The position numbers were made by a program, and so were the translations under genes. A DNA stretch of 27,704 nucleotides from a virus. Shown here one piece after another: positions 1,510-8,309 of this stretch; the first letter of the stretch is position 1, and every line of letters begins with the position of its first letter. The notes beneath the pieces are model-generated. The model worked only from the letters and a program-made list of their open reading frames with translations, did no database searches and was not told the DNA's origin. The DNA lies in IMG/VR virus record IMGVR_UViG_3300032241_000324, positions 1 through 27,704 of that record; one strand, 5' to 3'.

Positions 1510-2598
1510 TTAGTTAAGAGGGTAAGTTGTATCTATATTTGGAGTTTCTTTTACATTAGTACTATATGTATAAGAGTTTATATTTGCTGTTTCTGTTAAT
1601 AAATCTTCTGATGGAGTAGATTCAAATAACATATCTTCATTGATTTCTGTTTCTGTTAATAAATCTTCTACCAATATTGAAGTTGCAGTTACAGCAATTT
1701 GTGCTAGATTTATTGGTAATACTTGATAAGAGGTAAACACATAATTTGCATTTGTCTTTGTACCAATAATAGATTGTGAGGAAACAAAATTACCATTAAT
1801 ATTTATTAATGTTAATTGATTATTTGTTGGAACAAAATCAACAACTACTGCTGTTGCTGTGGCAGTATCTAATGTATAACCTTGATAAACAATTTCACCA
1901 ATCTGATAATTACCTACTTTTCCTTCATTTGAAAGATTAAATACAACTTTATCTGTTGGTTGAATATTATTTAATATATTTGTAATTGAGGTAGCAATAA
2001 GTTTTGGTGTACTTGTTGCACCAAATATAAAACCTTTAACAGTAAAATCTAAAGTCCAAATAATCGTTCTTGTATCAGAATCTCTTGGTCCTTCATAAGT
2101 AATATCAAAATTAGTTGTGTTCAATATCACAGGAATTTCTTTGGTAATTCCTAATTCGGGAATAAGATTAATTTTAATTGTATAATCTGGTGTAAAAAAT
2201 GGTAATATATGTTCAATGATTTGGTGAGCATCTTCAATATTTCTTGTATACAGATGTAAAGAAAAATCAAAATTATAAGGCACAGGATTATATTGTGCTG
2301 TCACGCCTGTTGTGGTATTATAAAAATTTTTAGTATTAGTAATTTGTTTTCTACTAGCATCATAACTTAGACCAGTCATCTCAAAAGATAATCTTGGTAA
2401 AGTCATTTGAACTTTTTTGTCTAAGTTATAATCACCTTCAATACGTTGAACATATAATTCTTTTGGTGCATAGGCAATAGGAACAATAAATCTTTCCGCT
2501 TCAGTTAAATCTGGATTATAACGAACTAAAGTGATATTATTAAATAGGTCACCAAAACCTACTGTAATTTTACGAATAATGTGGTTGTATGCGGACAT
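1510..2598 (-). CDS. 15: Tail sheath stabiliser/completion protein (T4 gp15-like) with an extra C-terminal module
   Basis: A 362-residue protein. Residues 1-200 match the T4 gp15 pattern: an N-terminal FGDLFNNI segment, VPIAYAPKE, LPRLSFEM, the QYNPVPY motif near residue 102, the LYTRNIEDAHQIIEHILPFF helix near 116-135, and IIWTLDFTVKGF near 179-190. In T4, gp15 forms the ring that terminates the tail and joins it to the neck. After about residue 220 the protein continues beyond the conserved core. A beta-rich module (about 224-291, with EIVYQG and a LININGNF segment) also occurs in the adjacent gp14, and an acidic tail contains EDLLTET twice (about 311-317 and 331-337). The start ATG overlaps the gp14 stop by one base (TAATG). 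The assignment of the core is firm; the role of the extension is unknown. Confidence 0.9.
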   Translation of the reverse strand: MSAYNHIIRKITVGFGDLFNNITLVRYNPDLTEAERFIVPIAYAPKELYVQRIEGDYNLDKKVQMTLPRLSFEMTGLSYDASRKQITNTKNFYNTTTGVTAQYNPVPYNFDFSLHLYTRNIEDAHQIIEHILPFFTPDYTIKINLIPELGITKEIPVILNTTNFDITYEGPRDSDTRTIIWTLDFTVKGFIFGATSTPKLIATSITNILNNIQPTDKVVFNLSNEGKVGNYQIGEIVYQGYTLDTATATAVVVDFVPTNNQLTLININGNFVSSQSIIGTKTNANYVFTSYQVLPINLAQIAVTATSILVEDLLTETEINEDMLFESTPSEDLLTETANINSYTYSTNVKETPNIDTTYPLN

Positions 2599-3479
2599 TA
2601 AATACTTCCAAATGGATTAGTTTCTGATGTATCAACAATCGTAGAGAAAGAATTTGCAATTAATTCATTATCATAATTCTCTTTATTGGATGGATTAGCC
2701 AATGGGTCAAACGAAACCAAACTATATTGAGCCCCACTAGTATATCCGTAAATAATAGTATTATCTAAGAATTCACCGGCAATATTGGTTACTGATAATG
2801 TACTTGAAGAAGGTATCCAAGATTGTACGATTGCTACTGTGTTTGCGTTAGCATATGAACCATCAAGAGATTGATAAACAATTTCTTGTATTGCATATGT
2901 TCCTGTTCCTGTACCAACATTAAGGTGTAAAGTGTATGCTGAATCTGTAACAACAGCATCGATATCTGCCGTACCTGTATTGATAATCTCTTGTGAATAC
3001 TTAAACTTCTCTAATTCTAATTCATAGAAGTAAGGTACTTTTCTGCCTAACATAAAGAAATCTTTTGTTTGATTGGTAAATTTAATCTCAAACAATTCAC
3101 CAGTACCGTTTAAGAATGGAATATAAATCAAATCACCTTCCATTGGTCTTGTGATTGTATTTTGTGGTACTCGTTGTGAGAATGTTCTCTTTGAAATAAT
3201 TACTTGAACCGTATTTTTAATTTCTAAACCAAACTTAGAAAAGAATTCTCTTTCACCACCATATTCTAATGAGTTAGAAAGATAGAGTTCTATTGGATAA
3301 GATGATTTAAATTTCTTAACCGGATCCTCACCAAACAATAAATCTCTTGCCTCACTATTGTTATTGGGTAAGTAGAATGCTTCAAAACCTTGGACTTTAA
3401 TGCTTTCAACTATTAAATCTTCAATTACCCGCTGTTCAGGTAAACTTCCATAATTGTTGAAATAGTGGTTCACCGGCAT
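2598..3479 (-). CDS. 14: Neck protein (T4 gp14-like) with an extra C-terminal module
   Basis: A 293-residue protein. The core (1-168) follows T4 gp14: VNHYFNNYGS, an EDLIVESIKVQGFEAFYLPN segment (T4 has VAESIQMRGVECYYVP), LLFGEDPVKKF, the EFFSKFGLEI segment, EGDLIYIPF, and EKFKYSQEIIN. In T4, gp13 and gp14 form the neck that closes the filled head and joins it to the tail. Residues 191-257 form a beta-type module with EIVYQS, WIPSSSTLSVTNIAGEF and YTSGAQY, clearly related to the module at the end of gp15. The gene starts one base after the HNH gene ends, and its ribosome binding site (AGGAGAAT) lies inside the last codons of that HNH gene. It ends in a one-base overlap with gp15. Confidence 0.88.
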   Translation of the reverse strand: MPVNHYFNNYGSLPEQRVIEDLIVESIKVQGFEAFYLPNNNSEARDLLFGEDPVKKFKSSYPIELYLSNSLEYGGEREFFSKFGLEIKNTVQVIISKRTFSQRVPQNTITRPMEGDLIYIPFLNGTGELFEIKFTNQTKDFFMLGRKVPYFYELELEKFKYSQEIINTGTADIDAVVTDSAYTLHLNVGTGTGTYAIQEIVYQSLDGSYANANTVAIVQSWIPSSSTLSVTNIAGEFLDNTIIYGYTSGAQYSLVSFDPLANPSNKENYDNELIANSFSTIVDTSETNPFGSI

Positions 3480-3480
3480 A

Positions 3481-3993
3481 TTATTCTCCTAATTTTTCAC
3501 ATAAATGTCCTTTATGGTGCTTTCTCACACCTAAAGAAACTAAAGACATTTTAGAACTATCTAAATTATTATCTATACACCACTTATACATATTTGTCAC
3601 GGTCAATTTTGTTCCGTCTGGTTTAGTTATTAACCAATTTTTAGATTTACCTTTTGAAATATTTTTTTTGTGTTCTTCGGTTTTTTTCTTATTCTTTAAA
3701 GTTTGGCTTATTTTTATCTTGTCTGATTCTGGACACTTTCTACCTAAATTCGCTTTATGTCCAATTGGAGGCCTAGATTTTTTTCCAGCCATAATAAATA
3801 ATTCATGCAATAATTCTTCTTTACCTATAATACCAGCTAACCCTTTCCAAGCTAATTCATCTTCTTTTTTACCATATTGTTCAAAAAGAATACGGTGTGC
3901 TTCTGCGTGTTCTTCTACTGTTAATTCAATTAAATTTGATGGTTCATCAGTACCACCAGCATGACGAGGTATTATGTGGTGTTTATGTTTCAT
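3481..3993 (-). CDS. HNH homing endonuclease between gp13 and gp14
   Basis: A 170-residue protein. The HNH nuclease motif is at the very N-terminus: MKHKHHIIPRHAGGTDEPSN, then LIELTVEEHAEAHRILF, giving the paired histidines (H5/H6), the central Asn and the downstream His that form the beta-beta-alpha metal site. The middle is Lys-rich with a KTEEHKKNISKGK stretch resembling NUMOD3-type DNA-binding elements. The C-terminus (about 124-168) has WCIDNNLDSSKMSLVSLG followed by HHKGH, a probable DNA-binding helix-turn-helix module that also ends the other HNH protein here. It is inserted cleanly: one base after gp13 ends and one base before gp14 starts, with its last codons supplying the gp14 ribosome binding site. 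It is a probable free-standing homing endonuclease; activity is not shown by sequence. Confidence 0.86.
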   Translation of the reverse strand: MKHKHHIIPRHAGGTDEPSNLIELTVEEHAEAHRILFEQYGKKEDELAWKGLAGIIGKEELLHELFIMAGKKSRPPIGHKANLGRKCPESDKIKISQTLKNKKKTEEHKKNISKGKSKNWLITKPDGTKLTVTNMYKWCIDNNLDSSKMSLVSLGVRKHHKGHLCEKLGE

Positions 3994-3994
3994 A

Positions 3995-4768
3995 TTAGTT
4001 CATAAAAAATTCCAGCGGCGCACCGTAATTCATTTCCATTTCTTTCTCTAATCTTTCAATTTCGTCTGTGGCTTCTTTTTGAATAGTTTTGCCATCTAAT
4101 GTAACGCCGCCAGGTAATTGTAGACCAGCAAACTTAGAAAGATTATTACCCCAACTTCTTTTAATGAGTTGTGTAGCATACTCTTTTATCCAACGGTCAT
4201 TCCATACCAAATTATAAACATCTGGATTAATGGCTGCATATGCTTCAGCAATCACAACAGTACCAACTGGTGCTTCAGAATCGCCCCATGACCAATCAAT
4301 ATAGAGTCTTTGCATATGTCTTTGGAAGCGAATAGGAACTTCTCCAGTGAACATAATTTCTAGAGAACGTAAGTGTTGTTGTGTTAAAGTGTAGTTGATG
4401 TAGGACGCTGAGGTGAAGTCGTACAACTCATTTAGTCTTAATTGATATCTAAGGTCAAACATATTGACGGAAGATTGAGAATCAGATACCGGGAATATAC
4501 GAGTGATACCAACAATTTCCATTGGATTACCTTGAGCATCTGTTGATTGACTTAAATCTAAATAGCTATTATCAATGTCGGTTTGTTGCAAACCTTTGAT
4601 ATAATAAACTTTTTGTAGTCCATCAAAGTGATAATCTTGCCAATATTGTAAGGCGTCATCTATCCTGTCCTGCACTTGATCCGAGTCAACATTTATTTCT
4701 ATCACGGGAAATCCTAATCTACGCAAGCAATAATTGGTAAAATCTTCTCTATTAGTTATTGTTGCCAT
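3995..4768 (-). CDS. 13: Neck protein (T4 gp13-like)
   Basis: A 257-residue protein. The signature is near the N-terminus: an RRLGFPVIEINVDSDQVQDR stretch followed by IDDALQYWQDYHFDG (about 16-50), the typical opening of gp13 neck proteins in T4-like marine phages. Further conserved-looking parts are the RHMQRLYIDWSWGD segment (about 150-163) and the LVWNDRWIKEYATQLIKRSWG helix (about 186-206). In T4, gp13 works with gp14 in the head-to-tail neck. The predicted start overlaps the 3' end of the upstream HNH gene by 13 bases; that gene's stop codon is read out of frame from the gp13 start. A modest AGGA site lies about 10 bases upstream. Its first 15 codons are duplicated at the start of the HNH gene. 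Confidence 0.87.
   Translation of the reverse strand: MATITNREDFTNYCLRRLGFPVIEINVDSDQVQDRIDDALQYWQDYHFDGLQKVYYIKGLQQTDIDNSYLDLSQSTDAQGNPMEIVGITRIFPVSDSQSSVNMFDLRYQLRLNELYDFTSASYINYTLTQQHLRSLEIMFTGEVPIRFQRHMQRLYIDWSWGDSEAPVGTVVIAEAYAAINPDVYNLVWNDRWIKEYATQLIKRSWGNNLSKFAGLQLPGGVTLDGKTIQKEATDEIERLEKEMEMNYGAPLEFFMN
4724..4768 (-). repeat. gp13 5' end, second copy of the direct repeat
   Basis: The functional gp13 start. It pairs with the repeat at 5407-5451. It also contains the HNH stop codon out of frame (4756-4758). Confidence 0.82.
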
Positions 4769-5451
4769 TTATTGTATCCTTTGTGTGTTATCTGTTTACC
4801 TGAATTAACTCTAGTCATAGCACCTTGGTCTAAATTATTTTTTCTACAAAATTCTCTTAAATTAAATATATCAACTTTTTGATTATTGTAAATAAAAGAA
4901 TAATTTTTACATTTTTTTATAAAAAAACCTTCTTTGTGTTTTTTGCCATACATAGGATTTTTTGTGCCTGTCGTTAAAGATTTAATATAATTCTTATGTT
5001 CTTCGGTGTGTTTATATCCAAAAGCTGGATGTTTATTTCCTTTTAGTCCATATAATGAATTATTTTCACCACTATTTTTTCTTGACACTACTTGTATATA
5101 TTGTTTTTTTACTGATGTATAAATCTTAGAATTAATTTTTAATTTTCTAAGGTTTTTCATGTGATGTGATATATTCCATAAAGCATACAACATTTTATCT
5201 TTATCTTTTCCTTCTAACATTTTAGGCAGCAAAAGATGACAAATAAAATGTTCCCGTGCAGTTAAAAATACGGTATCATTATTTTTACAAATACTTTTGG
5301 GAATTATGTGGTGATTTTCCACATATATCGGTGATGTTTTTTTGTTCCAACCACGAAGTAAAGCATTTTCTATGATAGAAAAATACCACTTACTATACTT
5401 ATTATCTAAGCAGTAAGACTTAAAATCGTTCCAATTAGTAATTGTTGCCAT
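4756..5451 (-). CDS. HNH homing endonuclease carrying a copy of the gp13 N-terminus
   Basis: A 231-residue protein. The ATG at 5449-5451 is chosen because AGGAGA lies 5 bases upstream; a TTG one codon earlier is possible. Residues 1-15 (MATITNWNDFKSYCL) copy the gp13 start and probably are not part of the nuclease. The nuclease follows: YSKWYFSIIENALLRG, then the HNH core ENHHIIPKSICKNND (about 46-59) and AREHFICHLL (about 66-75). A central tract with NKHPAFGYKHTEEH and TGTKNPMYGKKH has two NUMOD3-like motifs, which bind DNA in phage homing endonucleases. The C-terminus (NLREFCRKNNL to HKGYNKW) resembles the end of the other HNH protein. The last four residues, KWQQ, are encoded by the gp13 start region in another frame. 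Expression appears controlled by a promoter-in-hairpin element just upstream. Confidence 0.88.
   Translation of the reverse strand: MATITNWNDFKSYCLDNKYSKWYFSIIENALLRGWNKKTSPIYVENHHIIPKSICKNNDTVFLTAREHFICHLLLPKMLEGKDKDKMLYALWNISHHMKNLRKLKINSKIYTSVKKQYIQVVSRKNSGENNSLYGLKGNKHPAFGYKHTEEHKNYIKSLTTGTKNPMYGKKHKEGFFIKKCKNYSFIYNNQKVDIFNLREFCRKNNLDQGAMTRVNSGKQITHKGYNKWQQ
5407..5451 (-). repeat. Copy of the gp13 5' end at the start of the HNH gene
   Basis: Forty-five bases aligned without gaps to 4724-4768, the start of gp13. By hand count 34 of 45 bases and 11 of 15 residues match (MATITN..DF..YCL). Similarity stops sharply after codon 15. The two copies flank the HNH coding region as direct repeats about 680 bases apart. 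Confidence 0.85.
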
Positions 5452-5454
5452 CAA

Positions 5455-5491
5455 TTTCTCCTATTATGAAGTATTTATCTAATAGGAGAAA
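5455..5491 (-). promoter_or_regulatory. Perfect 12-bp inverted repeat enclosing a late promoter and sequestering a ribosome binding site
   Basis: The arms 5455-5466 and 5480-5491 are exact reverse complements (12 of 12). The 13-base loop contains the promoter motif GATAAATA (minus strand, 5479-5472). The downstream arm includes AGGAGA, the binding site for the HNH start at 5451. A transcript reading through from upstream genes would fold this arm into the stem and block translation. A transcript starting from the loop promoter would lack the upstream arm and be translated. The same arrangement is described for T4 genes such as e, soc, 49 and the I-TevI ORF. A terminator is less likely because no T-rich run follows either arm. 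Confidence 0.75.
5472..5479 (-). promoter_or_regulatory. Late-type promoter GATAAATA
   Basis: A match to 7 of 8 bases of the T4 late -10 element TATAAATA, located in the hairpin loop 21 bases upstream of the HNH start and directing transcription into the HNH-gp13-HNH-gp14-gp15 unit. Late promoters of this type need only this element plus the phage sigma and clamp system. Confidence 0.7.
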
Positions 5492-5504
5492 CGAGGCTTT
5501 TGTA

Positions 5505-5705
5505 TTATTGAATTACTTTTGAACCTAGAGGACCATCTGGTTGAGCAGGTTGAAGTTGCTCTCTTGCTTGATTACTAACTTTATCAATCAAACCACGACT
5601 AAATTTGTGTGGTAATTCATCTAAACCAGCAATTATTGTATTCAATTCATTGATGGTAACTGTAATGGTAACAGTTTGTTCTTGTTGTTGAACTTGGTCA
5701 TTCAT
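5505..5705 (-). CDS. Small unnamed protein, 66 residues
   Basis: A short ORF with a good AGGAG site 7 bases before the ATG. It starts with a Gln-rich segment (MNDQVQQQEQ), then an alternating Val/Thr/Ile strand (TVTITVTINELNTIIAGLDE), LPHKFSRGLIDKV and a C-terminal Pro-rich end (QPAQPDGPLGSKVIQ). It has no membrane segment and no signal peptide. Similar short proteins with a strand followed by an ELP motif occur upstream of gp13 in T4-like marine phages as far as I recall, but no function is known to me. It follows the 131-residue gene after 28 bases and is probably co-transcribed with it. The gap after it (5455-5504) holds the regulatory hairpin. Confidence 0.7.
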   Translation of the reverse strand: MNDQVQQQEQTVTITVTINELNTIIAGLDELPHKFSRGLIDKVSNQAREQLQPAQPDGPLGSKVIQ

Positions 5706-5733
5706 ATCAAAACTCCTATGTTAAAAAATTATA

Positions 5734-6129
5734 TTAAGTGTTGCTTGTATTAGCCCACGGTAAAGCAGGTTCAGAAATAATATTAATCTGATTATTAATC
5801 TGTTCATTAATTTTTTCATTAATGTGGTCAGCATAAGAACCAGTAATACTATTATATATCCAGCTCAAAACATTCGCTTCCTGTAATTGATTGAAATGAA
5901 TAAACTCACCTGTATCATTTGCTGTTAAAGTAAATGGAGTTGCACCGGAGAAAGTACCTGTTTGATTTGCTGGAGTTACTGCTGTATAATCCCAATAAGT
6001 TTGAATAACGGTATTTGGATATACATTACCAGATACGGTTACATCTCTAACTTTGAGGCTTTTGATGGTGTGGGTATAAGTCCACTCGGTATTGGCTAAA
6101 GTTGCCAATGTATTTACTGTGTCTGCCAT
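5734..6129 (-). CDS. Unnamed probable structural protein, 131 residues
   Basis: It begins MADTVNTLATLANTEWTYTH, followed by a beta-rich middle with PNTVIQTYWDYTAV and a GTFSGATPFTL segment, then a QLQEANVLSWIYNSI helix, a polar repeat INEKINEQINNQIN and an EPALPW end. It has no enzymatic motif, signal peptide or transmembrane segment. The ribosome binding site is strong (AGGAGAAAATAATG). A full TATAAATA late promoter lies 45 bases upstream, so this gene heads its own late transcript that may continue into the 66-residue gene and the neck genes. The style and position suggest a small virion or tail-associated protein of marine T4-like phages. The role is not established. Confidence 0.72.
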   Translation of the reverse strand: MADTVNTLATLANTEWTYTHTIKSLKVRDVTVSGNVYPNTVIQTYWDYTAVTPANQTGTFSGATPFTLTANDTGEFIHFNQLQEANVLSWIYNSITGSYADHINEKINEQINNQINIISEPALPWANTSNT

Positions 6130-6173
6130 TATTTTCTCCTAAAATGTTGGCGTTAATGAAGTTGCTGCCATAG

Positions 6174-6181
6174 TATTTATA
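6174..6181 (-). promoter_or_regulatory. Late promoter TATAAATA
   Basis: An exact match to the T4 late promoter consensus on the minus strand, placed immediately after the stop codon of the 713-residue collagen-like fibre and 45 bases before the 131-residue gene. This is the best-matching late element in the window. Confidence 0.8.

Positions 6182-8309
<2,128 letters not shown>

Follow-up and report, generated by a model that had tools for sequence, protein, structure and literature searches.

A late promoter within an RNA hairpin in the leader of phage neck gene gp13, and its probable capture by an HNH homing endonuclease gene

In phage T4, the leaders of gene e (lysozyme), the best documented case, and of soc and 49 contain a hairpin that buries the Shine-Dalgarno sequence (SD) and carries a late promoter in its 5′ part; RNA from upstream promoters is silent, and late RNA is translated (PMC3014915). 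Leaders with a late promoter and a hairpin sequestering the ribosome-binding site (RBS) also precede homing endonuclease genes (HEGs), namely Aeh1 mobE, T4 segB and the genes of I-TevI, I-TevII and I-TevIII (PMC2988022). The free-standing HNH-type HEGs Aeh1 mobE, located in nrdA, and T4 mobA, located in gene 60, lie in host coding regions and split the gene in two (PMC2988022). The mobile ORFs of fungal mitochondria (Allomyces atp6; Glomus atp6, atp9, cox2 and nad3) follow another route, in which insertion of the endonuclease gene into an essential gene supplies a substitute 3′ end, and the invaded gene stays whole (PMC3630166).

Here, we describe a promoter-containing hairpin upstream of an HNH gene and the neck gene gp13 in the window, the whole 27,704-nucleotide stretch of viral DNA that was analysed. 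A promoter within a hairpin over the SD is common to this locus and to T4 e, soc and 49, whereas the switch in the window appears to have belonged originally to gp13, its stem is longer, and the genes upstream of it are not evidently early. Unlike the hairpins of mobE, segB and I-TevI, that of the window seems to be the invaded gene's and exists without an endonuclease, and the endonuclease begins with host-gene codons. In contrast to nrdA and gene 60, gp13 is restored in full behind the HEG. As in the fungal mobile ORFs, a substitute gene end comes with the insertion, but it is the 5′ end; the HEG uses the promoter, RBS and start codon native to gp13, and is of the HNH rather than the LAGLIDADG or GIY-YIG type. 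The window case works like the fungal elements without being a member of their type, as it involves the 5′ end of a phage gene and not the C-terminal end of a mitochondrial one. We regard the explanation as a whole, which combines a gp13 leader hairpin, its capture by the HNH gene and a replaced gp13 5′ end, as likely.

The genes around the hairpin are located on the minus strand. In plus-strand letters of the window, positions 5455-5466 (TTTCTCCTATTA) and 5480-5491 (TAATAGGAGAAA) form 12-bp arms that are 100% complementary and 13 nt apart. Read in minus-strand order, the element is GTTTCTCCTATTA-GATAAATACTTCA-TAATAGGAGAAATTG-ATGGCAACA, with the ATG of the HNH gene after TAATAGGAGAAATTG. The 5′ arm (5480-5491, minus strand) reads TTTCTCCTATTA in RNA, is extended by a G-U pair at 5492, and is expected in read-through RNA only. 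The loop holds the late-promoter motif GATAAATA (5472-5479, minus strand), which varies at its first base among relatives (NATAAATA). The 3′ arm (5455-5466, minus strand; TAATAGGAGAAA in RNA) contains the SD AGGAGA (5456-5461, minus strand), originally that of gp13, as we propose, and now that of the HNH gene. An earlier note on this DNA had described exact 12-bp arms, a late promoter in the 13-base loop and AGGAGA in one arm, and all of these are present in the sequence. The HNH start at 5451 is an ATG (5451-5449); the formal start of the ORF is an in-frame TTG at 5454. Judged from the promoter spacing, the late transcript probably starts at about the first base of the 3′ arm, near 5466.

At the composition of the window, about 0.1 perfect inverted repeats with arms of 12 bp or more and loops of 3-40 nt are expected, and two are present. 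The other one, 14 bp long with a 14-nt loop (1415-1428 and 1443-1456), is located within the ORF at 531-1499. Of the seven NATAAATA motifs on the minus strand of the window, six have a gene start within the next 60 nt (binomial p = 6e-8); the motif at 5472-5479 is the only one enclosed in a hairpin. The duplex between arm and leader has an energy of -16.4 kcal/mol at this motif, compared to -2.0 to -7.4 kcal/mol at the other motifs of the window. The same measure gives -12.2 kcal/mol for T4 e, and -1.8 (strict) or -9.3 (with a longer stretch) for the T4 soc control, so that it misses some known cases. T4 gene 13 has a GC-rich hairpin that does not contain the promoter motif. The NATAAATA late promoters of the window phage are found on the minus strand at 5472, 6174, 13965, 18773, 22718 and 23334, and their first base is not always T. 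The next late promoter upstream of the hairpin, TATAAATA (6174-6181, minus strand), lies outside any hairpin.

The minus-strand RNA from 5500 to 5445 has a predicted folding energy of -23 kcal/mol, compared to -6.8 +/- 2.4 kcal/mol for shuffled sequences (z = -6.7), and the predicted helix extends into the HNH start codon. RNA from 5466 to 5445, which lacks the 5′ arm, is predicted to be unfolded. The computed probability that the SD is unpaired is 0.001 in the long RNA and 0.29 in the short one. We hypothesize that read-through RNA from the upstream gene forms a hairpin of 12-15 bp in which the SD of gp13 is buried, so that there would be little translation. The proposed source of such RNA is a co-directional ORF of 66 amino acids (5505-5705, minus strand), which is 98.5% identical in the HEG-less relatives L002 and L094. 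RNA started at the loop promoter would not carry the 5′ arm, and its open SD would allow translation. Gene gp13 would thereby be read solely from its own late promoter. There is a good probability that the hairpin silences translation in vivo. The hairpin switch as such is already known, from T4, and the earlier assignment of the element to the class of T4 e, soc, 49 and I-TevI is supported by the comparison, which shows a conserved RNA hairpin that sequesters the RBS and encloses a late promoter.

A search with gp13 (PHROG head-tail adaptor Ad2) as the query retrieved 80 IMG/VR relatives. The closest, L002, has a gp13 protein with 93% amino-acid identity and shares the upstream gene (98.5%); its promoter-in-hairpin is followed by the gp13 start codon, and the HNH gene is absent. 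L026, L029 and others likewise have the hairpin element directly before gp13 and have no HNH gene. A collection-wide search of IMG/VR for the pattern CTCCTRTTANATAAATA-N(2-12)-TAATAGGAG found 36 stretches: 34 elements stand before gp13 in HEG-less phages, and two (L246 and L277) precede gp13-HNH fusions, as in the window. Across the relatives, the hairpin stays with gp13 while the genes before it come from several unrelated families. Since HEG-less phages have the same hairpin in front of gp13, it is almost certainly a leader element of gp13, and was very probably captured when the HNH gene was inserted. The earlier note had proposed that the element gates how ribosomes enter the neck operon; the gating holds, but the reason is the opposite of the one given, as the neck gene owned the switch first.

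The promoter motif occurs within 80 nt before the gp13 start in 132 of 151 unique leaders, mostly 25-45 nt away. A strong hairpin is absent from 120 of the 144 gp13 leaders of the family, at the same threshold as in the terminator count below, and the hairpin is therefore dispensable. Many of the gp13 leaders without a long hairpin, such as those of L007, L024, L067, L080, L188 and L195, have CCTCC or a similar sequence between promoter and SD, and T4 e resembles them. Judged by their sequence, these leaders could be a weaker form of the switch if the transcript start lies past CCTCC. Phage isolates with gp13 proteins 40-50% identical to that of the window (Cr30, DLP6, Melnitz, phiM12 and pf16) have no such hairpin before gp13, and distant DNA similarity to phage isolates covers only 6% of the query, in or near the gp13 segment. 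The pattern search also gave an extra promoter-in-hairpin in L276 (minus strand, position 36 counted on the reverse complement), which lies about 3.2 kb farther upstream than the one before gp13. This second copy precedes a very short ORF of 12 amino acids, and might be what remains of a former gp13 start, split off by a later insertion.

The design of the switch matches the T4 type; however, the early-versus-late timing that the earlier note gave as its rationale is weakly founded, as nearby upstream genes look late. The same hairpin mechanism might instead serve as insulation, setting the dose of gp13 from its own promoter whatever the upstream transcription, and we give this purpose somewhat less than an even chance. 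The upstream genes are co-directional and come from the several unrelated families, and their stop codons mostly lie 14-35 nt ahead of the promoter. The upstream neighbors in the window look late (fiber-type genes, and the promoter at 6174-6181), so that silencing of early RNA is not evident as the reason for the switch. Intrinsic terminators precede gp13 in 10 of the 120 leaders without a strong hairpin and in none of the 24 with one, a contrast in the direction expected for insulation but not significant (p = 0.21). On the other hand, the characterized T4 cases are all timing switches, and early read-through is possible, given that our view covers 27.7 kb of the phage. Insulation fits the late-looking upstream genes at least as well as timing does. 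The gp13 promoter is immediately preceded by an intrinsic terminator in L005, L019/L117, L030, L058, L080, L096, L132 and L230.

Both purposes imply a hairpin that acts as RNA. An inverted repeat with perfect symmetry about a promoter might, however, act as DNA, for example as the operator of a dimeric regulator in the manner of I-TevI, which represses its own late promoter (PMC2988022). Selection on the pairing can be seen in 118 clusters with leaders chosen by gp13 homology alone: 13 have arm-leader pairing of -14 kcal/mol or lower, whereas swapping the arms between phages gives an expectation of 2.5. The search for the pattern-found set fixes the inner 9 bp, so that only the flanks are tested there; the mean outer-arm energy is -10.8, compared to -9.5 (sd 0.38) after permutation, and 0 of 2000 permutations reach it. 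Most of the outer-arm signal comes from two outer-stem types, CGTTT/AAAYTG and CCAATC/GATTGG, the latter with a bulge. L172 (ATCATTCTCTTATTA/TAATAGGAGAATGAT) and L228 (TATTCCTATGG/CCATAGGAATA) have other stem sequences in the same architecture, and their comparison depends least on relatedness, whereas the co-variation statistics ignore kinship. The earlier note had named arms that vary without compensating changes as the observation that would speak against its reading; in the relatives the arms co-vary instead. In 23 of 30 elements the sense RNA folds better than the antisense RNA (p = 0.003), which is expected of pairs drifting through G-U. Taken together, the pairing evidence argues for an RNA on the strand carrying gp13. 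An operator is improbable because of this G-U drift, the differing stem sequences, one type of which is bulged, the occurrence of the element in HEG-less phages and the constant location of the SD within one arm.

A stem of 12-15 bp right behind the stop codon of the upstream gene could also be an intrinsic terminator or an RNase processing site. This is very unlikely, as the stem sequence tracks the SD and the late RNA would lose an arm, and an intrinsic terminator was rejected since there is no U-run 3′ of the stem.

The free-standing HNH homing endonuclease gene (4756-5451, minus strand) encodes 231 amino acids from the ATG. Its product matches the family profile phrog_655 (PHROG 655; E = 6e-29) and has NUMOD3 and HNH motifs. 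The first 14 codons (5410-5451, minus strand), encoding MATITNWNDFKSYC, match the gp13 start of HEG-less L002 at 37/42 nt; residues 1-14 copy the gp13 start, which is MATITNREDFTNYC in the window and MATITNRNDFKTYC in L002. HNH relatives outside gp13 start almost at the core, for example with MFLDNKYTKWYF, and have no gp13-like piece. The gene would have been inserted inside gp13, at about codon 14, and the native promoter, hairpin, RBS, ATG and first 14 codons of gp13 would now start the HNH gene, fused in frame to the HNH core. The sequences make it very probable that the HEG captured the gp13 leader.

The HNH protein alone found few relatives, compared to 80 with an alignment and profile of four HEGs. 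The profile identified HEGs at the gp13 site in L281, L285, L286, L287, L288 and L289/L290, and one with a degraded N-terminus in L291/L292. The next ORF is gp13 in each case, overlapping or abutting, and most of them keep a late-promoter leader. About ten related HEGs are located at the gp13 site, nearly all with the gp13-start fusion. The HEG leaders of the window, L246, L277 and L285 have the hairpin, whereas those of L230, L286, L288 and L289 are not of the strong-hairpin type, from which it follows that the HEG takes whichever leader the local gp13 has. The HEGs of the window, L230, L246 and L277 have a common N-terminal nuclease half and C-terminal halves of two kinds, one ending GKQIxHKGYxKWQQ and the other EKYFxQGQxP...GRL, a pattern suggestive of module exchange at a single insertion site.

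The earlier note had treated the hairpin as the endonuclease's own control. The hairpin does now precede the HNH start, and mobE, segB and I-TevI carry such hairpins (PMC2988022). A timing switch specific to the endonuclease, as in Aeh1 mobE, which arrived or evolved together with the HNH gene, is nevertheless most unlikely: it is contradicted by the HEG-less relatives with the same element directly before gp13, and the same-site HEGs of L230, L286, L288 and L289 use non-hairpin gp13 leaders.

The capture of the gp13 leader is accompanied by a change in gp13 itself. The complete gp13 (head-tail adaptor Ad2, neck; 3995-4768, minus strand) has its own ATG inside the HNH gene, with a 13-nt overlap (4756-4768). 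Its 5′ end (4679-4768, minus strand) is identical to that of L002 at 65/90 nt, compared to 601/681 for the remainder (Fisher p = 1.3e-4), and among 49 similarly divergent gp13 pairs without a HEG, none shows a drop this large. The combination of a HEG start close to the L002 gp13 start and a divergent gp13 5′ end in the window indicates that the native start went to the HEG and the 5′ end of gp13 was replaced. L277, with a HEG, and HEG-less L279 have upstream proteins that are 95% identical. The HEG of L277 holds the native start MATQITN, and gp13 there starts MATITN. The amino-acid starts of this pair agree with the swap; the nucleotide counts are not decisive, as the gp13 bodies are more divergent. 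Replacement of the gp13 5′ end resembles co-conversion and is only suggestive as to homing into a HEG-less allele; the HNH protein presumably has homing activity.

The 3′-terminal coding part of the HNH gene contains a candidate SD for gp13, AAAGGA (4777-4782, minus strand). Because of this candidate SD and the gp13 ATG within the overlap, gp13 is probably translationally coupled to the HNH gene. The complete gp13 with its divergent new 5′ end would thus depend on the same switch. The alternative that the HNH region is a spliced intron, with the gp13-like HNH N-terminus as the 5′ exon in the manner of some intron ORFs in frame with the preceding codons (here gp13 codons 1-14), can hardly be correct, as a complete gp13 with its own ATG lies downstream and the HEG coding sequence fills the insert; a group I intron was rejected because Rfam gave no hit in 3400-6300, even at E values up to 1, and thus no catalytic RNA core.

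We think it rather likely that this HEG family settles by 5′-end capture near codon 14 of gp13. The HEG would arise as a fusion starting from the promoter, RBS and first codons of gp13, and gp13 would receive a substitute 5′ end. Expression of the neck gene would then be tied to the parasite, making its loss costly, and one lineage would have inherited a hairpin switch and, with it, the restriction of expression to the late promoter. Capture of the 5′ end looks like a new way for HEGs to settle in essential genes. The parasite would take over the start signals of the essential gene but provide a replacement start and so spare it, a mirror image of the fungal mitochondrial elements. This would answer how a promoter-less HEG obtains correctly controlled expression within an essential operon. 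Open-access full-text literature yielded no phage HEG with a captured host-gene start, which does not prove novelty, and the use of the switch by gp13, capture including the first codons and a replacement gp13 5′ end were not found in searchable open-access papers. The comparison places the known T4 switch on a core virion-assembly gene of many uncultured T4-like phages. Pairs of phages with and without the HEG are already in databases, so the capture idea is testable.

Further insertions were observed around gp13. The gp13 match in S-CAM9 (KU686204-6) and the S-8S55/56 cyanophages falls into two pieces over about 1.1 kb, so that this gp13 contains an internal insertion. A second short HNH ORF of the window (3481-3993, minus strand; 170 amino acids, PHROG 655), which starts MKHKHHIIP, is located between gp13 and gp14, so that the neck operon of the window has two HEGs. 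L162 has a related HEG without any start codon (2207-2821, plus strand) directly 3′ of gp13 and before gp14, which may be a remnant, or may be expressed through frameshifting or as a fusion.
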